IMG/VR virus record: IMGVR_UViG_3300042868_003804
Coordinates: 1-36,814 of that record
Source: a virus
Length of the DNA stretch: 36,814 nucleotides
Direction: 5' to 3' (one strand)
The notes beneath the pieces are model-generated. The model did no database searches, was not told the DNA's origin, and was given only the letters and a program-made list of their open reading frames with translations. Below, one piece after another: positions 1,224 to 34,425 of this stretch. Made by a program: the position numbers and the translations under genes. Each line of letters starts with the position of its first letter. Position 1 is the stretch's first letter.

Positions 1224-4200
1224 TTAATCTTCTACTTCTACAGAAATAAATTCACGAGACAAAACATTCTGCCACAAGTTCACAAACTGAGGATACTTTT
1301 CAGCAAGGCGTTCACCCTCATCCCACAAAGCCTGACGCAAAATAACGGCACCACTAATCTTGGAAGCAGATGACCAGTTATCTTCTGTTACCTGCGGAAA
1401 GTTACTGACTGTATATGCCACGTTTGCATCACGGTATTTGAAGTATTCAGTAGCTGCCTTAACAGAATCGTTATCTTGGACAGAAGGTTCAGCAATAAAT
1501 TTGCGGGCTTCAATCAACTGGACACGACGGTTACGTTGAGAAGCTGTCGCTGCTGATGCCCGATCCCAGTTAGGGTAAGCCGCTTGAACCGCTTTAGTTT
1601 GTATCTTTTTCTGTTCTTTAATTTGAAGATTAGCCAAAGTACCAAACATGTCATCAGGAGAAATGCTGTCCATGACTTCCTTCATGTTTCTGTTAAACAC
1701 AAAGTTGGCAATAGCTGATTCAAGGTTGATAGCAAATTGTTTAGGGTCTTTGTATTTTACATCGCCAGCAAGTTTTTGGATATTCCAAACATCAGGGTCA
1801 AGTTCACTTGATTTAGGACTGAAATAGCCAGCAACGTTTTGGTATTTGTCAACAACAGATTTGTTTTGACGATACCAATCGTAGTATTCCTTCGTCGATG
1901 AAGAACCAACAACGCTTCTGTCTGTGATGGGCTGCATGAAAGCAACAAAGTTTTCATTGCCGAACTCTTCTACAAGCATTTCAAGTTTGTCTTGGTAGTC
2001 AAGCCCGTTCTTGTCACCCATCTTGTCGATCTGATTCCAGCGTTGAGCGATTACACCAATAAGGACGTTTCCTTTTTTGCTTTTAGCTGTCCACTGGGCA
2101 ATAGGGGCACCAGGTAGGAACAGCCCAGCCCAGCCAATAAGACCGTAAATTTTAGTTCCCAGTTCTTTACCGTCGGCTTCCCATTGCGCACGGGAATCAT
2201 AACCAGTAGGACCTTGTTGTCCAGGTGTTACAGGATCGTAGTCTTTTGTTGCTGAAGCAACTTGCAAAGCACGAATAACAGATTGTGCTGCTTTTTGTCT
2301 GTCTTCTACTTTAGAGAATAGTTCAAGACCGTTCGATCCAAGGATTCTCATTACCTGATCTGAAGCACCAGGTAAAACAAACTGTGCAATATCTGGGCTG
2401 GATAAATCTGGGATTCCGAAAGGGGCAATAAGGTCACGTATCTTGTCAAAATCTGAAGAGTCTGGAAGCATTTTGATTAACGGAAATGAAACCACTGGAC
2501 CAATACCAGGGTATGCGGTTGTAATCATAGAAAGACCACTGAGACTGTTGCCTACTCTAAAGTCAAGACCGTTCTTGCGCCATTCTTTTAGGAACCCACC
2601 GCCAACACTAACGGCGTACATTTCTTCACCTGATACTGGGTCTTTGTAAAGGAATGAATCTTTCTTTCCGTCACCGTCAATGTCTGTACCAAAGAAAGTG
2701 TTTTGGCGTAGCTCACCCATAACTTGATCTGCACGGTGAATGACTTTAGGGTTGGTCGCTAACTTTGCAGCTGAACCTGTCAACTCAACAAAGGCATCGA
2801 AGAAAGGAAAAATCTTTCTGTGTGACGCACCAAATTTTGTTTTGCGAGAAGCGTCAAAATAAGTATCTTTTGTGAAACGTGTAGCGAATAGCTCACCAAG
2901 AAGGTTTACATCTTCGACAGTCATTTCACCTTGGGCTGATGCAGCTGCTTCAATAATGTCGTCTTTTAATGATTGCAGTATGTCTGTTTTCTTTACGGTT
3001 TCTACAAGAAGGTCTGCTTGTGCTTTGTCCATTACTGGCACTAATTCAATTATACGTTGCCATTTGGCTTGGTTCCATGTTGGGACACGGGCAAGCTTGT
3101 CTGATGCTGCACCATATACACCGTCCCACGCAAAAGAAAGAAGTGCGTCATATCTGTTGCTAATTCTTGTTCGTGCATTTCTAGTGTCATTTGCACTATC
3201 AAAGACAGAAGGAAAATAATTTATACGTGCTGGAGCAAGATCACTTTCTGAATACATCTTTTTGATGTAACTTTTAAGAAGATTGTTTGGTTTGAAATCA
3301 AGATTTTTATCTCCTGTGTAGGCTGAAAAACCTCTACGACCTGATAGTTCTTCTCCGTCAAATTTGTTTTTTGCTATTGCTTCAAGGATTGAATCGTCGT
3401 CCATTGCATATAACTGGATGTCGTCGATATTTGTTTTAACAAAATTTCTTACGCCGTCAAAGTCCCAAATATAGTTAGGATCGATTCTTCCTTGGTTTTT
3501 AATGTATTCAGCAAGAACTGGTTTAAGATCTCCTGTGTGGAATCGTGTTGTGATTTCATCAATAGATTTTCCATCTATTAAATCTTGGGCTATTTTTCTT
3601 ATGTAACCGTTTGATGCCCGTTCAGCAATGCGTTGTGCAAATGCTGTAGCCCAAAGTTCTGGGTTAACTAACCGTTCAACCGATTGGACATGACCTCTAG
3701 ACACAGCCCCGCTTACAGCCGCTGGGTTTTGCATTAAATCATATGCCTTGTTTGATTGACCACGCAAAATAGCATCGTCCATGCCAGGTAGTTCATCTAC
3801 GATTCTTGCGTCAAATACAACTAGACCTTCTTCTAATGAACTAATTTTGTTTATTTGTGAAGCAATAACATCATCAACAGGAAGATTATAAAGAGTTGTT
3901 GTGCCAGCATCTTTTAAGTTTTCAAACTTACGAAGAAGACGGTTTGCTTCAGCAAGTTCGGCTTCCATTTTAGAAGCTTTACGTGCGGTTCTAATGACAC
4001 GACCCATTGCGTCAATGTTGTTTGTATCGCTAAACAACTGCATGAAGTATTGGTAGTGGTGGTCAAAAATACCTGAAAATGACAAACGGGCAAGTTCTTC
4101 TGGAAGGGTTTTAATTAGATACTTTGGTCTAATAAGAACATTAGCCTTCCAGACTCTTGACATTGACCAGTCAACAAGATCACCAGTTGCTTCAACGAGT

Positions 4201-5885
4201 GCCATTGGAGTATTAACAAGTTTGTTTGGTTTGGTTTCTAAAATAATTTTTTCACCTGTAACGGGATCAATTGTTTCTTCTACTATTGTGCGTCTAGCTT
4301 TTTCAAGTCGTGAACGTACAGGTCCCAATCTGTCTGCAATCTGTCGAAGGTCAACAGGGTCAATAAGAATAGGGTTAACTTTTAATTGCTGGCTAATAAG
4401 AAGTGGACCATAACCGCCTCTAGATCCACCAATAAGCCAAGGTAAAGGTACTGATGAACCAGCACTATCTGTTACATATCCAGAAACAGTTGCTTCAAAT
4501 TTTCTTTTCCAAGAAGCAATGCGGCTAATTTCATCGTCGGTGTAATCCCATTTTTTTAGTTGGTCTTTGATAACAACATCTTCAAATTTGTTTAGCCATT
4601 CAAAAATTACCGTATCATCGGATTGGTCAAATGCTTCAAACATTTCTGTCATTAAACGGTTACGTAAAGGAAGTGGTACTTCAAGAACACCCATAACACT
4701 GTCAGCGTTTTTGGCGGCAGTCAAAGGATTATTTAATGGAAAATCTGTTGACTCTGGAAGAGTGTCGGCAAAAGGGCGATACCTTGATACGTTTCCTTTG
4801 ATAGCTACACCAGTTTTGGTGACAACAGGGCGAGGGTCAATTCCAGGCATTGTGCGCATATGGGTCATCGGATCGGCTGAATATACAGCATCATCAAAAA
4901 CTGCTATTACTTCATCAAGAGTATTAGCTTTTTGAAGTTTTACTGCTGTACCTGGGGGAATTGCTCCTCCAGATCTGCGCCAAATTTCTGCTGCTGTTCC
5001 AGACTCAGGACCAGCAAACGATTCAGCCCACTTCTTTCCCTTGGGTGTTAATTTGAAAGCTTCCCAGTTATTTGGGTTTACAGTGCGTCGACCATTATTG
5101 ATTCCACCAGCTTCATCAAGAACTAAACGTCCTTCTTCTACTGCTGCTTCAAGAACTTTCTTTGATTCTTTTGACAGAGTGGTGGTAACTTTTGCTCGTT
5201 TGCCAGCTCTGGCTCCAGCGGATATTGGTATGTCGCCAAGTTTTCCAAGATCTAATAATGCACCAGCAGGTACGATATTTACTGGGTCGGCAACCAATGT
5301 GTATGTAGCATCTACTGCGCCAGAAATAATATTCCATGCTGTTCCGCCTGGTTCGATAAGACCCATATCTGCAAGTGGTGCAGCAAAGGCTCTACCTACA
5401 GTAAATGTATGTCCATAAATTTGTGGTTGTGTTTCAACTTTTCCTTCTGCGACATCTTGTTGGGTGCGACCTTCAACAAAGAATCCGCTTCCAATATCAA
5501 GTTTGTCTCCACCTGGTAGAGCGTCAGCAATTACTTGACCAGCTGTTGTGTTTGTAACAATACCTTTAAGTTGGTCTAGATATGAAGATTGATTTTTTTT
5601 GAATCCAGGACCACGATCATTTTTCATTAATGGGGCATACAACTCTGGGTTGTTATACAGAAAAGCTAAGGAGTTTGTTAAAGCCTGAATAGGAAAATCA
5701 ATTCCAGCTGATACTGTTCTTGTCCCTACTTTTGTTCCCAAAACAACAGGGGCTGCTATTTTTCCAAGTTCTTCACGAACTGGATCAGGTATAGTTTCTA
5801 CCGCCGATTCGCCTCTTGAATAAATAAATTGCAGAGCCGTATCTTTGATGTCATCAATAAAATCAAAAGGATTTTTCCAACCCAT
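1224..5885 (-). CDS. Very large internal-virion/ejection-type protein, 1553 aa
   Basis: This is the longest gene of the window, in the head operon after the portal and two small genes, and its ATG overlaps the upstream stop as TAATG. The sequence is mostly soluble and mixed helical, with Ala/Gly-rich stretches near residues 40-75 and 185-215 that could contact membrane. No signal peptide is seen. Near residues 1065-1075 it carries DIDGDGKKDSF, a DxDxDG calcium-binding-type loop. Podoviruses often encode a very large virion protein here that is ejected with the DNA or forms part of the conduit. The function is inferred from size and position, not from a recognised domain. I see no polymerase, lysozyme or protease motif. 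Confidence 0.75.
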   Translation of the reverse strand: MGWKNPFDFIDDIKDTALQFIYSRGESAVETIPDPVREELGKIAAPVVLGTKVGTRTVSAGIDFPIQALTNSLAFLYNNPELYAPLMKNDRGPGFKKNQSSYLDQLKGIVTNTTAGQVIADALPGGDKLDIGSGFFVEGRTQQDVAEGKVETQPQIYGHTFTVGRAFAAPLADMGLIEPGGTAWNIISGAVDATYTLVADPVNIVPAGALLDLGKLGDIPISAGARAGKRAKVTTTLSKESKKVLEAAVEEGRLVLDEAGGINNGRRTVNPNNWEAFKLTPKGKKWAESFAGPESGTAAEIWRRSGGAIPPGTAVKLQKANTLDEVIAVFDDAVYSADPMTHMRTMPGIDPRPVVTKTGVAIKGNVSRYRPFADTLPESTDFPLNNPLTAAKNADSVMGVLEVPLPLRNRLMTEMFEAFDQSDDTVIFEWLNKFEDVVIKDQLKKWDYTDDEISRIASWKRKFEATVSGYVTDSAGSSVPLPWLIGGSRGGYGPLLISQQLKVNPILIDPVDLRQIADRLGPVRSRLEKARRTIVEETIDPVTGEKIILETKPNKLVNTPMALVEATGDLVDWSMSRVWKANVLIRPKYLIKTLPEELARLSFSGIFDHHYQYFMQLFSDTNNIDAMGRVIRTARKASKMEAELAEANRLLRKFENLKDAGTTTLYNLPVDDVIASQINKISSLEEGLVVFDARIVDELPGMDDAILRGQSNKAYDLMQNPAAVSGAVSRGHVQSVERLVNPELWATAFAQRIAERASNGYIRKIAQDLIDGKSIDEITTRFHTGDLKPVLAEYIKNQGRIDPNYIWDFDGVRNFVKTNIDDIQLYAMDDDSILEAIAKNKFDGEELSGRRGFSAYTGDKNLDFKPNNLLKSYIKKMYSESDLAPARINYFPSVFDSANDTRNARTRISNRYDALLSFAWDGVYGAASDKLARVPTWNQAKWQRIIELVPVMDKAQADLLVETVKKTDILQSLKDDIIEAAASAQGEMTVEDVNLLGELFATRFTKDTYFDASRKTKFGASHRKIFPFFDAFVELTGSAAKLATNPKVIHRADQVMGELRQNTFFGTDIDGDGKKDSFLYKDPVSGEEMYAVSVGGGFLKEWRKNGLDFRVGNSLSGLSMITTAYPGIGPVVSFPLIKMLPDSSDFDKIRDLIAPFGIPDLSSPDIAQFVLPGASDQVMRILGSNGLELFSKVEDRQKAAQSVIRALQVASATKDYDPVTPGQQGPTGYDSRAQWEADGKELGTKIYGLIGWAGLFLPGAPIAQWTAKSKKGNVLIGVIAQRWNQIDKMGDKNGLDYQDKLEMLVEEFGNENFVAFMQPITDRSVVGSSSTKEYYDWYRQNKSVVDKYQNVAGYFSPKSSELDPDVWNIQKLAGDVKYKDPKQFAINLESAIANFVFNRNMKEVMDSISPDDMFGTLANLQIKEQKKIQTKAVQAAYPNWDRASAATASQRNRRVQLIEARKFIAEPSVQDNDSVKAATEYFKYRDANVAYTVSNFPQVTEDNWSSASKISGAVILRQALWDEGERLAEKYPQFVNLWQNVLSREFISVEVED

Positions 5886-8482: not shown

Positions 8483-10453
8483 TCATAGCCATTTTGGTCG
8501 CCACTGCCTTGGTGGAGCCTTGGCTTGTGTGAGGTTTGGCAGGTTCAAAATTGCCATCCATAATGCCATAACAATATCTGTTCCGTTCTTTTTATCTCTA
8601 GCCCATTTAGTTAACTCATCGGTTGCTGCCAGGGTTTTCCAGTTACCACTCATCGAAGGCAAACGAAGTGCGCCTGACCTGATAACTGCTGGCAGTAAAG
8701 CTTCAACACCTAGCGATTCATCCAGCTTGTTTCGGCTAGTGGTATGTGGTATCACATTGACTCGGTGCAAAGCCTGCCATTTGCGTACAAAGTCGTGAGC
8801 TAGAAGGAACCGTTGGGCTGCGTTGATCTCAACCACCCAGTGTGAGATGGGATAACCCATTTCATAGGATCGTTCTTGCATCCTGTCCATCAAACCTGAG
8901 TATTCACCAGTCATAGTGTCATAACCAAGGACTTCTTCAGCGGATAATTTGACACGCTCGATATCCACTACGTGATAAAGGTTGGTGTTTGGCTGGTAAA
9001 TAATCCAAACAAACGCCCAAAACATAGTCGGGGACGGGTCTACAGCAACAATACTGATCCACGGGTGGGCTAAACCTTCGGGAATATAACCTGGTTGGCG
9101 GTGGTTATCTATACACCCTTGGTAATCCACCCCATCTGGTCCTATGCCACCAGTAATCCAGGTGCGATGTACAAGTTTCGTGTCAAGATCCAGGTCTTCT
9201 TGCTGATATACAACTTTGAACACGTCTGGTTTGTTGTATCTAATAAAAGATAGGTCTTTCCACGGTAGACGCTTCGGGTCTAGCAGTGGACCGTCAGGAT
9301 ACGGCAGCGATTTGAAAGACCGTGACTCTTTACCTGTGTCTAGTTCTTCGTAATATGCCCTATAGATAATGTGGCGGTACTTTAATTGTTTAGCGGGTTG
9401 CCCAGCTTGAACATCTTCAGGTGTTTCAACATCCGACCCGTCATATTGGAGATCTTCTTCAATGTCGTACGTTTCTTTAGCGAGACAGTGGGCGTAGAGG
9501 TCGCCTGATCCGAGTCTCTGTCCAACAACAGCCAGTAAACCACCTGGGTCGCAACGTGCTTCTGCGACTCCATCCCACCGTTCAAGTAATTTATCCCTTG
9601 CGACTGATTCACGGGCGTTGTCTGGTGAGGCAACGTCGTCGAAGAGGCATAGGTCGGCTCGGTGTCCAATGAATTCTGCTTCAATTCCGTAGGCACGTAC
9701 AGTTGGCTCTTTGTTGTCCAACCCGTTTCCGTCAAGTTGCTCGACGACAAATTCTTCTGCCCGCCATAAGGCACCTTTGTCCACTGGTTTGAATCGTCCA
9801 TAGTCAATTGTTAAACATCCTTCTGCATCTATTGCTAACCCCTTTTGAACCATCATCGGATCGGGAAGAATTGGGGAAACCCTTTCGAGCGTTTCACGAA
9901 TACGACGGGAATACATCTTTGCCATGTTCTGTGAGACTGATCCGATCATTACACGGATGCGACGGTTGCGTACTATCGCCCACACAGCTACATCGTGGAA
10001 CAAAGTGGATTTTCCTGCACCTGGTGGGACGTTAAGAACTACAAATTCTTTTTCTTCGGACTCCAACAGGTTCACTAAGGTGATAGCTGCTTCTACTTGC
10101 CACGGTGAAGGGACACGCCCTAGATATCTGCGCCTGAAGTAATCAAAATCTTCTAACCCTCGAAGGGCTTCCTCACACAACATATCGTGCGGGATGGCAG
10201 ATGGCAAGTCAATGGTGTCCATGAAATCCATGTGCGCACGTTCTTGGCGACCACCGTTACCTGCACCAGTGTTAGCTCGATGGTTTGCTTCTTTACGGTT
10301 CGCTTCTAGCTCTTTGGCTCGTTTCAACCAGCGGGAACCCGTATTTACGTGTACCCCTGTCTCGGCACAGGCATCTTTAATGTTTCGTCCTGAAGCTATT
10401 AAAGCGAAGAACTTGGCTTTGTCCTGAATTGGGACAGCTCTTTTTGTTCCCAT
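8483..10453 (-). CDS. terL: Terminase large subunit with N-terminal HTH
   Basis: This is the DNA-packaging motor: the ATPase drives translocation and the nuclease cuts the concatemer. Residues about 10-45 form a helix-turn-helix of the kind seen in small terminases (SGRNIKDACAETGVHVNTGS). A Walker A motif PPGAGKST lies at 143-150 and Walker B LCLFDD at 268-273. An RNase H-like nuclease start, AVDPSPT, is at about 470-476 with a likely metal-binding Asp472. Length (656 aa) fits a TerL carrying an extra DNA-binding domain. No separate small terminase was recognised nearby, so the N-terminal HTH may replace it. The gene follows three small basic-protein genes and precedes the portal. Confidence 0.93.
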   Translation of the reverse strand: MGTKRAVPIQDKAKFFALIASGRNIKDACAETGVHVNTGSRWLKRAKELEANRKEANHRANTGAGNGGRQERAHMDFMDTIDLPSAIPHDMLCEEALRGLEDFDYFRRRYLGRVPSPWQVEAAITLVNLLESEEKEFVVLNVPPGAGKSTLFHDVAVWAIVRNRRIRVMIGSVSQNMAKMYSRRIRETLERVSPILPDPMMVQKGLAIDAEGCLTIDYGRFKPVDKGALWRAEEFVVEQLDGNGLDNKEPTVRAYGIEAEFIGHRADLCLFDDVASPDNARESVARDKLLERWDGVAEARCDPGGLLAVVGQRLGSGDLYAHCLAKETYDIEEDLQYDGSDVETPEDVQAGQPAKQLKYRHIIYRAYYEELDTGKESRSFKSLPYPDGPLLDPKRLPWKDLSFIRYNKPDVFKVVYQQEDLDLDTKLVHRTWITGGIGPDGVDYQGCIDNHRQPGYIPEGLAHPWISIVAVDPSPTMFWAFVWIIYQPNTNLYHVVDIERVKLSAEEVLGYDTMTGEYSGLMDRMQERSYEMGYPISHWVVEINAAQRFLLAHDFVRKWQALHRVNVIPHTTSRNKLDESLGVEALLPAVIRSGALRLPSMSGNWKTLAATDELTKWARDKKNGTDIVMALWMAILNLPNLTQAKAPPRQWRPKWL

Positions 10454-10843: not shown

Positions 10844-11008
10844 TTACTTTCCTTTTTTCGTTCGGGATGCAGCCATGTTATCAACAAGATTCGGGTACGG
10901 ACGACCAGCCTTTTTCGCCCTTGCTTTTGCTGAAGCTTTCTGTGCCGAAGACAAAGGAGTCGACTTCTTCTTCGGGTTTTCTTTTTCCCAAACAGGTTTT
11001 TGTTTCAT
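10844..11008 (-). CDS. Small basic protein, 54 aa (PYPNLVDN motif)
   Basis: A basic Lys/Ala/Ser-rich protein starting MKQKPVWEKENPKKKS and containing AGRPYPNLVDNMAA near the C-terminus. That motif recurs in small phage proteins beside terminase genes. The frame stays open upstream to an ATG at 11155, but that extension (Cys/Pro/Trp-rich) looks unlike the conserved core, so I prefer the ATG at 11008. The start is uncertain because no strong ribosome site precedes it. It is the first gene of the packaging operon that I can support. Confidence 0.6.
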   Translation of the reverse strand: MKQKPVWEKENPKKKSTPLSSAQKASAKARAKKAGRPYPNLVDNMAASRTKKGK

Positions 11009-11747
11009 GTTGGAAACACTAACACCATCTGCTACTATAAAACCAACTTCACAAGACCTCCACGCTGGGATAGCGTCAAGGCAGGCAAGGCTGTACATCG
11101 GTTGCATGATGCGGGGCAATTCACACCAGGGAACTGGGGTAGATGAATCCTGCAATCAGACAATACCGTTATGTAATTATTGATCCTATTGTGTAAGAGA
11201 TTCAAGCAGCGTAATGAACGTCATCTCATTAAAACTTTCGGGTGTCGGCTAAACATGGCTACGGCGACCTTGGTATCACTTTGGTATCTAAACTGTGGGG
11301 GAGCTAAACCCAGACTGTCACGATCTGGTTCCGCTAAAGCGGCTACCGCCCTCGCTTCGCATCGGTTGCTTGCAAAGAAGTGACGTCACGATGTCACGAT
11401 GCGGGTTCAAGTCGGTTGTTTTCTTTTTTTCTTTCTCTGCCAACATATTTAGAACAACCTCCAAGCTGGTGTACTTCTCCCCCGCCCGAAACGTACAACA
11501 CTCAGGACAACCACAATCAGTAGTCAACCACCACACACAGTGAACACCCCCCACCAACCAAACCCTCCACACAACAAAAGAGTGAGAACGTAGCTTTCCA
11601 GGTACATATATATACCCCCCTATGAGCCTCGGCAGACCCCCAGTTGAGGTTTAGCCTACCGTCTGGTAGGTAGGGAGCCTTTCCTACTGTCCCCCGCTTT
11701 TTTTCGTGAGCTGATATCGGCAACGCCTAGCCCCTCCCCCTTGTGGA

Positions 11748-11763
11748 TGTTTCACGTGAAACA
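11748..11763. promoter_or_regulatory. Perfect chromosomal-type parS site
   Basis: TGTTTCACGTGAAACA is a complete 16-bp palindrome identical to the consensus bacterial chromosomal parS (the Bacillus/actinobacterial ParB-binding centromere). No ParA or ParB gene is visible in the window, so a ParB from the host or a co-resident element would have to act on it. It lies about 80 bp from the first iteron. Confidence 0.85.
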
Positions 11764-11842
11764 TAGTTGCTCTTGTTCTTTGGTGGTGCTTGCTTTTGTT
11801 AGCGGGTTGCTGTCTGTTGTTTGCAAAGGGATCTTTTTGGGG

Positions 11843-11974
11843 AGTCGGTGACTGTTGGGGGAATAGTCTGTGTCTGTTCGTGAAGAGTCGGTGACTGTTG
11901 GTGTGGTGGTCGGTGGTTACTTGGGGAGAGTCTTGGACTGTTGGTGTTTTTGGGGTTTAGTCGGTGACTGTTGG
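11843..11974. repeat. Six iteron-like direct repeats, AGTC-N3-GACT-TGTTGG type
   Basis: Exact copies of AGTCGGTGACTGTTGG start at 11843, 11886 and 11959. Variants start at 11865, 11908 and 11929. Start-to-start distances are 22, 21, 22, 21 and 30 bp, so the first five fall on one helical face. The 11929 copy changes the central three bases (GGT to TTG) yet keeps AGTC and GACT as an inverted pair, which suggests a dyad protein-binding site. An AT-rich run follows the last copy. A replication origin or a cooperative operator is likely. Confidence 0.75.
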
Positions 11975-12045
11975 AAAGTTTTTTTGGATTATTTTGTGAG
12001 CCTTATTCCGTAAGGGTTTCACGGGGTGTTTTTGTTTCTTGAATG

Positions 12046-12074
12046 TTGTAACTAGCTTCTAAGTGTTGTACGTT
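12046..12074 (+). promoter_or_regulatory. Early promoter P1 (TTGTAA-17-TACGTT)
   Basis: A -35-like TTGTAA at 12046-12051 is separated by 17 bp from TACGTT at 12069-12074, which fits the actinobacterial TANNNT -10. ATATCGAG begins exactly 10 bp after the start of the -10 box, as in the second promoter at 14223-14251. It would drive the early operon starting at 12123. Confidence 0.55.
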
Positions 12075-12122
12075 TTCTATATCGAGTTACAAGGACTTGA
12101 TAGAGCTTGAAGGGGCTACAAC

Positions 12123-12350
12123 ATGGCAATGAGCAAGAAAGACTACGAACTAATAGCGGGGGTGTTCTCTGAACACGTCAAGAGCTATCGGGAGCAAGGT
12201 CACACCAAAGAGATATCGGACAAGATAAACGCTATCGGCACGGTAGTTTCGGCATTAGCACGAGAACTAGAAATAGAGAACCCACGTTTCACCCATGACC
12301 GTTTCGTCACGGCTTGCGGGTTCACTCGCCTATCTTGGGTAGGTCGGTAA
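12123..12350 (+). CDS. Small conserved phage protein (KDYELIA / ENPRF type), 75 aa
   Basis: The first gene of the rightward early operon, preceded by a GAAGGGGC ribosome site and promoter P1. The sequence MSKKDYELIAGVFSEH followed by IENPRFTHDRFVTACG matches a widespread small-protein pattern of actinobacteriophages. The N-terminal segment is helical and the C-terminal NPRF-x3-RF-x2-ACG segment is conserved. No function is established to my knowledge. An internal ATG two codons on (MSKKDY) is an alternative start. Confidence 0.85.
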   Translation: MAMSKKDYELIAGVFSEHVKSYREQGHTKEISDKINAIGTVVSALARELEIENPRFTHDRFVTACGFTRLSWVGR

Positions 12351-12571: not shown

Positions 12572-12733
12572 ATGCAGAGCTATACGGTTCAGGTAGTAGT
12601 CGGCAACGTCTACGAGATAACAGTCAAGGCAGACACGCCAGAAAAGGCACAGGAGCTCGCTTTAGAGTTCGCCTACGACGGGGAGCTAATCGAAGCGGGG
12701 CGGGCAGTCTTAGAGATAGCTGAAAACAACTAG
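12572..12733 (+). CDS. DpnD/PcfM-like small protein, 53 aa
   Basis: A 53-codon frame starting MQSYTVQVVVGNVYEITVKA. It shows strand-strand-helix-strand character with TPEKAQELALEFAYDGELI in the middle. This resembles the small DpnD/PcfM-type domain (Y-x-V strands, then an Ala/Glu helix, then a short strand). The start is two bases after the previous stop. The family match is by eye only, and the domain has no assigned biochemical activity. Confidence 0.7.
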   Translation: MQSYTVQVVVGNVYEITVKADTPEKAQELALEFAYDGELIEAGRAVLEIAENN

Positions 12734-12739
12734 CCGAAA

Positions 12740-12775
12740 GCCCGCAAGGGCTCTGGCGGGGATAGTCTCCCGCCA
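12740..12775 (+). other. Tandem RNA hairpins just upstream of a start codon
   Basis: GCCC-GCAA-GGGC (12740-12751) is a short hairpin with a GNRA tetraloop. Directly after it, TGGCGGG (12754-12760) pairs perfectly with CCCGCCA (12769-12775). The second stem ends six bases before the ATG at 12782 and would occupy the ribosome site. There is no T-run, so a terminator is unlikely. Confidence 0.6.
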
Positions 12776-12781
12776 CTGACG

Positions 12782-13186
12782 ATGGCAGACAAAAAAATAC
12801 CGAAGGGGTACGACAAAATGATAACCAAAAAAGGGATCGAAATATCCAAAGTGCTTAGCACGGCGGGTCTTGAATGGCAGTGGGGAGACAGGGACGAAGT
12901 GCTAGACACGCTCTCGCTTATCTGTCGCCACACGAAGACATACACCCGCCTCCATGAGATTTTTGCGGGGGACGATACGCACTCTGGCGAGTGGGTCAAT
13001 GCCAACTACAAGTGGCTAGAGAAGCGGGACGAACAGCTCACCGCACGTCTAGAGGCTCTGGGTCGCCAGTTAGCTATCTGGTGCAGTGCTGGCAGTCCAG
13101 TCCTAGAGCTAAAGAGTCTCTACGGCGTGACCGTAACTGTCACTGATGCCAACGGCATACCACGTACACGGGACATGGGGGAATGA
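12782..13186 (+). CDS. Hypothetical early protein, 134 aa
   Basis: The largest product of the first part of the early operon. It is soluble and charged, with a helical middle (about residues 35-105) and a beta-rich C-terminus ending TVTDANGIPRTRDMGE. The start follows two hairpins and lacks a clear Shine-Dalgarno. An internal ATG at 12818 is an alternative. Its TGA overlaps the next ATG (TGATG). I recognise no family. Confidence 0.7.
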   Translation: MADKKIPKGYDKMITKKGIEISKVLSTAGLEWQWGDRDEVLDTLSLICRHTKTYTRLHEIFAGDDTHSGEWVNANYKWLEKRDEQLTARLEALGRQLAIWCSAGSPVLELKSLYGVTVTVTDANGIPRTRDMGE

Positions 13187-16884: not shown

Positions 16885-17127
16885 TCACTCTGCACTGTAT
16901 TTGTTGCGCCACATCGAAGGTGAATGGTTCTCTTCGACAGCTGCCTTGATCTCCAGTGTTTCGTACAGGCGTACAACATGGACACATGGGTCGTTGCCTT
17001 CTTCGAACTCTTCTTCTTCTTCTAGTGTCATGGGTATACCATCGTGGGTAGAACAGATTGGGGCACCCGCAAATCCTTGCGTGACCCCAATCTTCATCCA
17101 CTCATCAAAAGATAGTGGTGTTGCCAT
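16885..17127 (-). CDS. Small conserved-type phage protein, 80 aa
   Basis: Acidic protein, MATPLSFDEWMKIGVTQGFAG, with THDGIPMTLEEEEEFEEG and a Cys pair (PIC-S, DPC-V). The layout FDEWM-x-GV-x2-GF followed by C-x2-HDG-x-P-x-T-x-EE recurs in small actinobacteriophage proteins of unknown function. Its ATG overlaps the ssb stop (TAATG), and the whiB gene follows 27 bases later. Confidence 0.75.
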   Translation of the reverse strand: MATPLSFDEWMKIGVTQGFAGAPICSTHDGIPMTLEEEEEFEEGNDPCVHVVRLYETLEIKAAVEENHSPSMWRNKYSAE

Positions 17128-17531
17128 TAGAAAAAGTCGTCAGCTGCCTGAACGGATGCACCAGGAAAGATCTGTCCTACTTGTGCCATCGTAGCGTTGG
17201 TCTGGTCTTTGAGCCAGACGTTCCAGCGTAGTGACACACCAATTTCGTCGGCAATGATCTTGATTGACTTGCCTTTGGTGCCGTCTTTTTTGGTGAACTC
17301 TTCTTGTTCTAGGCGTCCAGTGACGATCACGGTGTCCCCTTTTGACACACTGCTGGCAAAGTTTTCAGCAAGTGATCCGAAGGCGGTGATGTTGTGCCAT
17401 GTCGTTTTCTTCTTGTCGTCTTTGCCGTAGGTGTCTGCTATTGAGAATGAGATGACAGCCATTTGGCTACCTGTGTATCGCATCTCTGGTTCTTGACCTA
17501 TCTTGCCGTGTACGGTGATGTGGTTACTCAT
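17127..17531 (-). CDS. ssb: Single-stranded DNA-binding protein, 134 aa
   Basis: An OB-fold SSB that coats ssDNA during replication and recombination. The N-terminus MSNHITVHGKIGQEPEMRYT, then VISFSIADTYG and HNITAFGSLAENFASSVSKGDTVIVTGRLE, are typical SSB strands. The C-terminus ends ADDFF, resembling the acidic tip that recruits partner enzymes. The ATG at 17531 follows GGAAGGGG, and an upstream extension to 17585 lacks SSB similarity. It works with the exonuclease and annealing protein of the same operon. Confidence 0.93.
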   Translation of the reverse strand: MSNHITVHGKIGQEPEMRYTGSQMAVISFSIADTYGKDDKKKTTWHNITAFGSLAENFASSVSKGDTVIVTGRLEQEEFTKKDGTKGKSIKIIADEIGVSLRWNVWLKDQTNATMAQVGQIFPGASVQAADDFF

Positions 17532-17691
17532 TGTTGTCCCCTTCCAAGGGTTGTAATGGTTTATGTTGGTTCGCAGCCTTGGCACAACGGTGTTGTGGTG
17601 GGGTTGAGAGGGTTACGTAGGTAGTCACAGCTACTTTGCAGCGTGGGCAATGCCAGTGTTGTTTCAGCGAGATGCCCTTCATGCCGTTCAT
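17524..17691 (-). CDS. Small zinc-ribbon protein, 55 aa
   Basis: From an ATG at 17691 the product is MNGMKGISLKQHWHCPRCKV... with HCPRC followed by HRC about 20 residues later, consistent with a small zinc-binding fold. The ATG lies one base after the HNH gene stop, and the end overlaps the ssb start. A longer frame to 17829 would overlap the HNH gene and is Thr/Pro-rich, so I reject it. Confidence 0.6.
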   Translation of the reverse strand: MNGMKGISLKQHWHCPRCKVAVTTYVTLSTPPQHRCAKAANQHKPLQPLEGDNNE

Positions 17692-19959: not shown

Positions 19960-20281
19960 TGTCGAAACATCCTTCATAGAACTTATGTCCAAAGATTTCA
20001 ACAGGGTGAAGACCAAAATATAAACACCACTTGTCTGCTGTATATACGCTCAACCCAGTTTGTTTCCAACGGGCAACGGTTTTACCTGGGACATTATGTA
20101 GCTGTTCTGCGTTAGTGAGAAAGTCCACCAGTGGTGCAGCATCAAGACGAACAAGACCAGCTGCACTGATAGGGCGATACTTCTTACGGGTAGAGGACAT
20201 ACCGACACGACAAACTTCGCATCGGCACCCCCTCCTGCGATACATGGATGCCCCATGTTCAGTTATTTCTTTGGCGTTCAT
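19949..20281 (-). CDS. Cys-rich, HTH-containing DNA-binding-like protein, 110 aa
   Basis: The N-terminus has EHGASMYRRRGCRCEVCRVG, the HG-x-Y-x-GCRC-x2-CR motif of a small family common in actinobacteriophages, probably zinc-binding. The C-terminal part (LHNVPGKTVARWKQTGLSVYTADKWCLYFGLHPVEIFG) resembles a helix-turn-helix of Xre-like or excisionase style. Its ATG overlaps the stop of the ribbon-helix-helix gene. A transcriptional regulator is the likeliest role, inferred from motifs. Confidence 0.75.
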   Translation of the reverse strand: MNAKEITEHGASMYRRRGCRCEVCRVGMSSTRKKYRPISAAGLVRLDAAPLVDFLTNAEQLHNVPGKTVARWKQTGLSVYTADKWCLYFGLHPVEIFGHKFYEGCFDSER

Positions 20282-20448
20282 GCTGCTACTGCTTGCCTTA
20301 CCAGGTCACGAAGAAGTTGGGATCGTTTAACCCCTCGTTCTTCACAAAGTTTTGCTATTTGTTTTAGCTGGGTGTCTGTTACTCGGATGCCGATAACTCT
20401 TACTGATGCTTCGGATGCGGTTGGGTCGACGGTTCTTTTGTTAGCCAT
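20278..20448 (-). CDS. Ribbon-helix-helix (Arc/CopG-type) regulator, 56 aa
   Basis: A 56-codon frame, coupled on both sides: its ATG overlaps the ERF stop and its TGA overlaps the next ATG. After a short tail, EASVRVIGIRVTDTQLKQIA gives the DNA-contacting strand and helix A, and CEERGVKRSQLLRDLVRQAVA gives helix B, the standard MetJ/Arc layout. Such dimers bind palindromic operators and often autoregulate. A palindrome at 22083-22096, next to this operon's promoter, is a candidate site. CopG-like plasmid regulators belong to the same fold. Confidence 0.8.
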   Translation of the reverse strand: MANKRTVDPTASEASVRVIGIRVTDTQLKQIAKLCEERGVKRSQLLRDLVRQAVAA

Positions 20449-21113
20449 CACTTGCCTTCCTGAAATGAAACAAGTTCTTTGAACGCTGACCGTAGTGCTG
20501 GTAGGTGTGATTCCATCCAGGGGTTGCCGTCGGGGATGCCAGCGTTGGCGGCTACTACTTTGGGGTCTATGCCTTTGGTTTCACAGGCGGCTGTGAACTG
20601 GTCAATTTGTGGTTGGGACAGTGGAGTTAGGGTCTTGGGTTTGGACTGCTTAGGAGCCTCCTGAGGGGCACTGGGGGCAACTGTGGGACGTGTTGCGGCA
20701 ACGCTCGAAGGTGCGTGGTCGACATCTTCCCATTCCTGCTTAGTCCATAAACTGAGACAAAATCCATACCTCATTCCGCAGTTCCTAATTAGATCGGACA
20801 CGAGTTCCTTTAGGAGATCGGGCTTGTTCGGTAGGCATGAACCAATACCAAGACGGCGTACACCATGCACTGTCATCCATCCAGCCATATGTGCCATGCC
20901 GTTTTCTACACGGTAGGCAGGCAGACCGTCAGCATCGAACGCTGTTGGCTCCCATGTCCATGCGCTATCCACTTCGAGAAGCATTTTTGTTACGTCGGCA
21001 TGCCCCACGAAGGACAACTGCGCACCGCCTTTAGGTAGCTTCCCGACAATCTTGGGATCTGGAACCCCGTATTTAGTGAGGACTTCATCAAGCCCGATTG
21101 TTTTCTTTTCCAT
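20448..21113 (-). CDS. erf: ERF-family single-strand annealing protein, 221 aa
   Basis: A phage recombination protein that anneals complementary ssDNA produced by the exonuclease. The call rests on QLSFVGHADVTKMLLEVDSAWTWEPTA, GMAHMAGWMTVHGVRRLGIG and LVSDLIRNCGMRYGFCLSLW, which match the ERF/Rad52-like core. It also rests on the gene position immediately after the exonuclease (TAATG overlap). The C-terminal third is Pro/Ala/Lys-rich linker followed by a helical tail ending AFKELVSFQEGK. Confidence 0.85.
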   Translation of the reverse strand: MEKKTIGLDEVLTKYGVPDPKIVGKLPKGGAQLSFVGHADVTKMLLEVDSAWTWEPTAFDADGLPAYRVENGMAHMAGWMTVHGVRRLGIGSCLPNKPDLLKELVSDLIRNCGMRYGFCLSLWTKQEWEDVDHAPSSVAATRPTVAPSAPQEAPKQSKPKTLTPLSQPQIDQFTAACETKGIDPKVVAANAGIPDGNPWMESHLPALRSAFKELVSFQEGK

Positions 21114-22063
21114 TATTTTTCCCCTTTCAAAAGGAAGGTACGTGTTTGTACTTCTTTGATGTATTGCTTAGCAAGGTCAGGGTGGGCAAGACGTAGTGCT
21201 TTGGAGTCAAATGATTCCCGCTTCTGTCCCTTCCACGTAGCAACCGTGACACCATTCAATATAGCGGTGTCGGCTTCACCCAACAACTCGCAAAACTCTG
21301 CTTTTAATTCATCTTCTAATTGCTTATACGACGCAAGTTCATTACGAACATGACGCAACCGTTGGATCAAGTCACCACTATCGCTAGGTAGCTCGACGGT
21401 GCGGGACACAGGACGTTGATACCTGGTCTGGATAGTTTCATATGACCACTTAACACCTGATGGTGTCATGCCCAGTTCAACACTGTTCAACCACTCGGTC
21501 ACGGCTTCGATATGTTCAGCTACTTCTTCTTCAGTGATGACCTGCTCCACCAATGTGAGGCGCAAGGTGTTGTCGAAGATTGCCCACGTGACACGTTTAG
21601 CATCAGCACAAATGTATTGAGTGATGCCCTGGATACGCCAATAGTCAGGCAGAGTACCTGAATACTCACGGCTTGTGGTCTTGACTTCGAGGATGTGGCG
21701 TGTCTCTTCGTTCCATCCGTCAAGGGTGGAGATGAGATGGCATCCGTTGTCTGTGTCGTAACAGAACAGTTCCTTTGGTGTTTCAAATTCAACACCGATC
21801 CTGTCGCCAGCCCACGAGATGATGGTGTCTTCGAGGCGGTTGCCTGTCTCCATTGCCGCATTGGGGGTGATGGGGCTAGGTGCCACGCCTGATAGTTGTT
21901 CAGCTGCGTAGTGGTCTTTCTTTACGAAAGGATGCAGACCATAGATAGCTGCTGCGGCTGAGGCTGAGATGCGTCGGTTGCCTTGGGCATCCATGTAACG
22001 TTGATCTAGCCATGCTTGTGAACCATGTGGTTCTTTGTGGATACGGTAACGATTGAAAGTCAT
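21113..22063 (-). CDS. YqaJ/lambda-Exo-type recombination exonuclease, 316 aa
   Basis: A PD-(D/E)XK 5'-3' exonuclease partner of the ERF protein. The N-terminal HGSQAWLDQRYMD and SASAAAAIYGLHPF match the viral recombinase domain. Glu78 (GNRLED), Asp115 (STLDGW) and Glu126-x-Lys128 (LEVKTT) form the metal site, and the QGITQY motif at 145-150 supports the family. The C-terminal part is helical. It is first in the operon behind the promoter at 22102-22130. Confidence 0.92.
   Translation of the reverse strand: MTFNRYRIHKEPHGSQAWLDQRYMDAQGNRRISASAAAAIYGLHPFVKKDHYAAEQLSGVAPSPITPNAAMETGNRLEDTIISWAGDRIGVEFETPKELFCYDTDNGCHLISTLDGWNEETRHILEVKTTSREYSGTLPDYWRIQGITQYICADAKRVTWAIFDNTLRLTLVEQVITEEEVAEHIEAVTEWLNSVELGMTPSGVKWSYETIQTRYQRPVSRTVELPSDSGDLIQRLRHVRNELASYKQLEDELKAEFCELLGEADTAILNGVTVATWKGQKRESFDSKALRLAHPDLAKQYIKEVQTRTFLLKGEK

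Positions 22064-33123: not shown

Positions 33124-33124
<1 letters not shown>
32129..33124 (-). CDS. Glycine-rich fibre/adhesin protein B, 331 aa
   Basis: Paralogue of the 25200-26189 product: same order of an N-terminal strand domain (VTIGATTNFTESRGVFNATVN; YYVRAVATSSIG) and a glycine-rich domain (VLVVGGGGGG, GGGGGGY, many GGNGG turns) ending VFSYYGP. ATG overlaps the stop of the collagen-like carrier (TAATG), the same coupling as in the other cassette. Probably a second receptor-binding tip. Confidence 0.8.

Positions 33125-34425
<1,301 letters not shown>

Follow-up and report, generated by a model that had tools for sequence, protein, structure and literature searches.

A chromosomal-type parS site in a freshwater actinophage genome, probably read by the host ParB, beside operator-type dyads and a candidate structured RNA

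Organization of the locus

The window, by which we mean the whole stretch of DNA analysed, is a linear virus record of 36,814 bp. Its genes encode WhiB, SSB, a RecT-like annealing protein, a RecE/YqaJ exonuclease, a RusA-like resolvase and tailed-phage packaging proteins. As WhiB is an actinophage marker (PMC6802176), its presence points to an actinobacterial host. A noncoding gap of ~1.1 kb (11,010–12,122) separates the leftward packaging operon from the rightward early operon, and the features described below lie within it (Table 1).

Relatives of this phage were gathered in two ways, by terminase similarity and by the core pattern of the RNA in the gap, and the family set comprised 84 non-redundant segments (285 kb). 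Among cultured relatives the terminase identity never exceeded about 29%, and the family terminase was absent among ~85,000 GTDB genomes searched.

Three further observations were made outside the gap. A type II hammerhead ribozyme (Rfam RF02276, 48.9 bits) lies between early genes at 12732–12794 (+), and this stretch has blastn matches in several relatives (L122, L145 and L170). ARAGORN called a tRNA-Arg of 99 bp at 2470–2568 (−) within a 1553-aa ORF (1224–5885), which is probably a false call. A 433-aa protein (33124–34425, −) carries collagen-like G-P-T repeats and is probably a tail fibre.

Table 1 Features of the noncoding gap and selected genes of the window
Feature	Coordinates	Strand	Remarks
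Large terminase	8483–10453	−	Marker for the phage family
Candidate structured noncoding RNA	11086–11436	+	~350 nt; T-tract end 11419–11434; no Rfam match
Conserved noncoding blocks, RNA to parS	11519–11660	.	CACACAGTGA, AAAAGAGTGA, GCCTCGGCAsACCCCCAGTTG, CTACCnnCTGGTAGGTAG
parS, exact chromosomal ParB-binding consensus	11748–11763	.	TGTTTCACGTGAAACA; 16-mer
Dyad 1	11841–11855	+	GGAGTCGGTGACTGT; 2 mismatches to ACAGTCnnnGACTGT
Dyad 2	11863–11877	+	ATAGTCTGTGTCTGT
Dyad 3	11884–11898	+	AGAGTCGGTGACTGT; 1 mismatch
Dyad 4	11927–11941	+	AGAGTCTTGGACTGT; 1 mismatch
Dyad 5	11957–11971	+	TTAGTCGGTGACTGT
Short T-rich patch	11976–12000	+	25 bp, 24% GC; lowest 0.5% of the window
Small inverted repeat	12001–12015	+	CCTTATTCCGTAAGG; kept in relative L152 as CCTTATTTTGTAAGG
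First gene of the rightward early operon	12123–12350	+	75 aa, phrog_19432-like
SSB protein	17127–17585	−	Recognised replication/recombination gene
Ribbon-helix-helix (RHH) protein	20278–20451	−	57 aa; kept in 8/8 relatives compared
SSAP	20448–21113		Recognised replication/recombination gene
RecE-like exonuclease	21113–22063		Recognised replication/recombination gene

Presence and distribution of parS

parS is the site used in bacterial chromosome segregation and is bound by ParB. The sequence-only reading had placed such a site in the gap, and this was borne out: the 16-mer matches the chromosomal consensus exactly, is enclosed by a perfect 18-bp palindrome (11747–11764) and has no second match in the window at up to three mismatches. 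The family set contained 11 sites, six exact and five with one mismatch, and no copies with two or three mismatches, whereas 200 control palindromes of the same composition gave means of 0, 0, 0.06 and 0.68 at zero, one, two and three mismatches respectively. Such a sharp break between 0–1 and two or more mismatches is the pattern expected from selection on a protein site. The one-mismatch sites fall into three classes (TGTTTCACGGGAAACA, TGTTTCACATGAAACA and CGTTTCACGTGAAACA). A 16-mer may arise by chance in a large collection, but no control did so in the family at zero or one mismatch, and parS recurs in several separate lineages; the probability of a chance match is therefore negligible.

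On the terminase tree (61 rows), the presence of parS was scattered and needed five gains or losses, a count unchanged by coverage cut-offs or by the omission of short contigs. The site is missing from most relatives, including the eight nearest to the window, and is thus not essential to the phage family. Every parS whose context was read is intergenic, at differing locations. In six lineages (the window, L300, L339/L377, L392, L153 and L189) it lies 504–569 nt past the RNA core, and in others it is found either between early genes or inside the 5′ leader that precedes the first of them. One relative (L306:1-8134; terminase 75%) carries two exact copies 1.56 kb apart.

These varying positions would suit a loading site better than an operator at a fixed distance. 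We also considered a local operator or an RNA hairpin as alternatives to a ParB site, because the palindrome occurs near early promoters, lies directly 5′ of a ribosome-binding site in two lineages, and has two of its three variant classes in the middle four bases, where a hairpin would have its loop. However, there were no compensatory changes in the arms, the placement relative to the promoter ranges from upstream of operators through 5′ leaders to between later genes, and the variants match the parS repertoire of the candidate host described below, so that we regard this explanation as very unlikely.

Exact parS was also found in at least 120 IMG/VR stretches, compared with 11 for a control palindrome of equal composition and centre. 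Among the matches listed, 82 of 146 fell outside ORFs of at least 100 aa, compared with 18% of random positions, and a ParB_N domain was present in only four of 40 larger parS-bearing records. These counts suggest that orphan parS sites are common in viral contigs, where the matches may include fragments, plasmids and host flanks.

Repeats between parS and the early operon

The repeats downstream of parS had been read as iterons, that is, as part of a plasmid-like replication origin. They are real: GTCGGTGACTGTTGG is present in three exact copies (at 11844, 11887 and 11960) and in two copies with three mismatches (at 11866 and 11930). Their spacings are unequal (22, 21, 43 and 30), and structurally they are imperfect inverted repeats instead of plain direct ones, with the units of the window reading AGTCnnnGACTGTTgg and fuller dyads in relatives reading AACAGTCnnnGACTGTT. 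In relatives the dyads, which number one to several in a genome, precede early promoters (L187, L197 and others) and so are not confined to a putative origin; they are missing in the nearest relatives of the window. The exact dyad ACAGTCnnnGACTGT was found 16 times in the family set, compared with 0.13 for control dyads.

A CRP-like site, TGTGACnnnnGTCACA, was counted 44 times as an exact match in the family set, against none for control dyads. Of 42 dyads with at most one mismatch, 21 had this site within 200 bp, and in 20 of these 21 the dyad lay upstream of it, often with TTGACA following. In the early promoters of relatives L187, L142 and L197, the site, which resembles actinobacterial CRP/GlxR sites, stands just 5′ of TTGACA; none was present in the stretch of the window's early region that was checked. 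From this arrangement we interpret the dyads as putative operators or activator sites of early promoters, not as replication iterons, with the RHH protein (Table 1) as a candidate binder.

An iteron origin was rejected on four grounds: the dyad form of the repeats, their occurrence at several promoters in relatives, the lack of a Rep-like match among the proteins scanned, and the lack of DnaA boxes at up to one mismatch within 10900–12130. In place of a DnaA box and an AT-rich unwinding element, the region has just the 25-bp T-rich patch; the AT-rich patch of the sequence-only reading exists at 24% GC, but is weak when taken over 60 bp (6th percentile). The inverted repeat was found as described (CCTTA...TAAGG), though its arms are just 5 bp. 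For the early promoter, no sigma-70-like match was seen in 11978–12123, so that it is placed by position only, at a site where relatives have clear TTGACA promoters. Taken together, the earlier description of the region holds in part: the case for parS is strong and the repeats exist, though they were misread, while that for both the AT-rich patch and the promoter is weak.

A conserved candidate structured RNA next to parS

On the other side of parS, the stretch of the candidate RNA is conserved in 57 terminase relatives, and its length to the T-tract is constant wherever a T-tract was recognised. An alignment of 31 sequences keeps 54 pairs intact in 98.5% of cells, and 17 pairs have changed on both sides. 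Covariation was strong, with a score of 0.260, compared with 0.114 for shuffles and 0.03–0.07 for slid partners, for a structure that was itself predicted from this alignment, which was made with MAFFT and not fitted to the structure. U–G pairs that are constant in all of the sequences fix the strand as plus. The minus strand was rejected, as the constant G–U pairs would break and the fold was weaker.

The RNA had no meaningful match in Rfam, and none in INPHARED, with no cultured relative. Its core pattern was found in at least 119 IMG/VR stretches, occurring throughout the phage family, and most of the core-pattern stretches listed also encode the family terminase (59–100% identity). The short noncoding blocks at 11519–11660 (Table 1) are likewise kept across the family. 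On these sequence comparisons, the RNA appears to be undescribed and to occur throughout an abundant freshwater phage family. It lies ~310 bp from parS, so that a noncoding RNA stands beside a partition site as in RedRock. An RNA-based origin may be one idea for its role, with packaging or regulation equally open.

Replication and integration genes

A search with the single integrase domain PF00589 gave no match in 17 family records, and this accords with a phage-plasmid. DnaB_C was likewise absent from the 17 records, and neither a phage replicase nor a CI-like repressor was recognised. Only SSB, SSAP and the RecE-like exonuclease were recognised as genes of replication or recombination. The same absence of integrase and replicase had been noted from the sequence, with the missing part of the genome named as a place where either might be found. 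In relative G003 the missing ~3 kb encodes the capsid N-terminus, scaffold and structural proteins, and a concealed integrase or replicase was therefore rejected.

The region had been interpreted as a plasmid maintenance module, in which parS and an iteron origin would sustain a low-copy episomal prophage replicating from here. A real parS, the absence of integrase and of a recognised replicase, and the position of the repeats and the short AT-rich patch next to parS are all in keeping with this, as is the precedent of the integrase-less cluster A mycobacteriophages (RedRock, Alma and LadyBird), in which parABS adjoins a noncoding RNA that the prophage requires to replicate (PMC7157519). However, the repeats are dyads that relatives also carry at other early promoters and that the nearest relatives lack, neither a Rep gene nor a DnaA box within one mismatch is present, and the family terminase was not found in GTDB genomes. 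Such a module is thus improbable, and the interpretation is partly supported: the host-type parS stands, the iteron origin does not, and a phage-plasmid lifestyle is possible.

Candidate host and the reader of parS

Neither ParB_N (PF02195) nor a ParA-type ATPase (AAA_31, PF13614) was found in any of the 17 family records, so that the phage appears to lack the ParA and ParB genes of a phage-plasmid. To our knowledge, phages that use partition carry their own ParA/ParB. No orphan or phage parS without ParB was found in the open-access literature searched.

A RecE alignment search led to a single GTDB genome in which this gene has a close relative, the Acidimicrobiaceae MAG G057. It contains a contig of the phage family whose synteny with the window extends from 29045 to whiB. 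RecE relatives were found in two of 397 genomes of the Acidimicrobiales, and one of these is the phage contig itself. The chromosome of this MAG has three exact parS sites, 40–43 bp apart, between rsmG and parA-parB. In the Acidimicrobiaceae, 64 of 121 genomes have a site with zero or one mismatch (candidate chromosomal parS), and all three of the phage one-mismatch classes recur there, often paired 60–110 bp apart. The phage repertoire is thus contained in that of the host family. The one co-binned contig tentatively points to the Acidimicrobiaceae as the likely host family.

Since the phage has no ParA/ParB and its site variants match the candidate host family, the protein most likely to read the site is the host ParB, which the phage probably uses at parS. 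The earlier suggestion of a host ParB stands as regards the host-type site and the lack of phage ParA/ParB, and ParB binding itself we infer. The occurrence of parS singly per phage genome, as opposed to clusters of two or three in the host, counts against this reading, as do its absence from most relatives and the lack of a sigma-70 consensus at the window's own early promoter.

We favour, with a probability of roughly 0.7, the explanation that a single chromosomal-type parS is read by the host ParB in a phage with no partition genes, and that the neighbouring repeats are operator dyads of early promoters. In this mechanism, CTP-loaded host ParB would clamp the phage DNA at parS and spread along it, the host would then treat the phage DNA like a partition complex, handled by ParA and SMC, and the dyads would serve a regulator of early promoters. 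A phage with the host centromere sequence alone, which was gained or lost several times and takes the same variants as in the candidate host family, points to direct use of host segregation.

What the phage gains from this is less clear. parS might act in lytic growth only, with the host ParB positioning or protecting the incoming DNA, or being titrated off the chromosome. We consider this possible, though somewhat less likely than not. No integrase or CI-like repressor was recognised, the bacterial genomes searched lacked the family terminase and almost all genomes of the order lacked RecE relatives, and a single site with patchy presence would suit an optional advantage. On the other hand, one 16-bp site is a poor ParB sponge, and the absence from genomes may reflect episomes lost in binning. 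With low confidence, we place segregation or positioning of a non-integrated genome (an episome or carrier state) slightly above purely lytic use, and the lytic-phase alternatives of positioning, DNA protection or ParB sequestration slightly below it.

A broader conjecture, which we consider unlikely, is that this widespread freshwater actinophage family is a non-integrated element with the 350-nt RNA as its origin, that the host ParABS segregates those members that bear an orphan parS, and that orphan parS is a common viral route. If true, the phage would persist while encoding neither replication nor partition proteins, the RNA origin would adjoin the packaging genes, and an orphan host-type parS would be a common viral way to tap host chromosome segregation. 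The RNA is in any case a separate lead on replication, packaging or regulation in phages with no recognised replicase.

Comparison with known systems

Actinophage stoperator and operator arrays consist of dyad-type repressor sites that lie at or upstream of early promoters in several places of the genome. The dyads of the window are like these in type and placing, although their sequence differs.

The cluster A mycobacteriophages are, like the phage of the window, tailed actinophages with no integrase or RepA, and their centromere site lies near a noncoding transcribed region, which is ~400–500 bp there; the two RNAs are compared by position, not by kinship. However, ParA and ParB are encoded by these phages themselves, and parS consists there of 8-bp direct repeats in an array (PMC7157519), whereas the window has a host-type site and no ParA/ParB genes. 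Staphylococcus phage Lacachita, a suspected extrachromosomal prophage, likewise has a partition feature without a full ParABS and lacks an integrase, but it carries a ParB-like gene (PMC10286716) where the phage of the window has the site only. The phage-plasmids P1 and N15 are also phage genomes with a partition site; they encode their own ParA/ParB and Rep proteins, none of which was recognised here.

The site of the window is also like chromosomal parS of the ParB/Spo0J type, found beside rsmG-parA-parB. It differs in that it lies on a phage, occurs once and has no ParA/ParB gene accompanying it on that molecule, yet the 16 bp are identical and the one-mismatch variants are common to the phages and the candidate host family.
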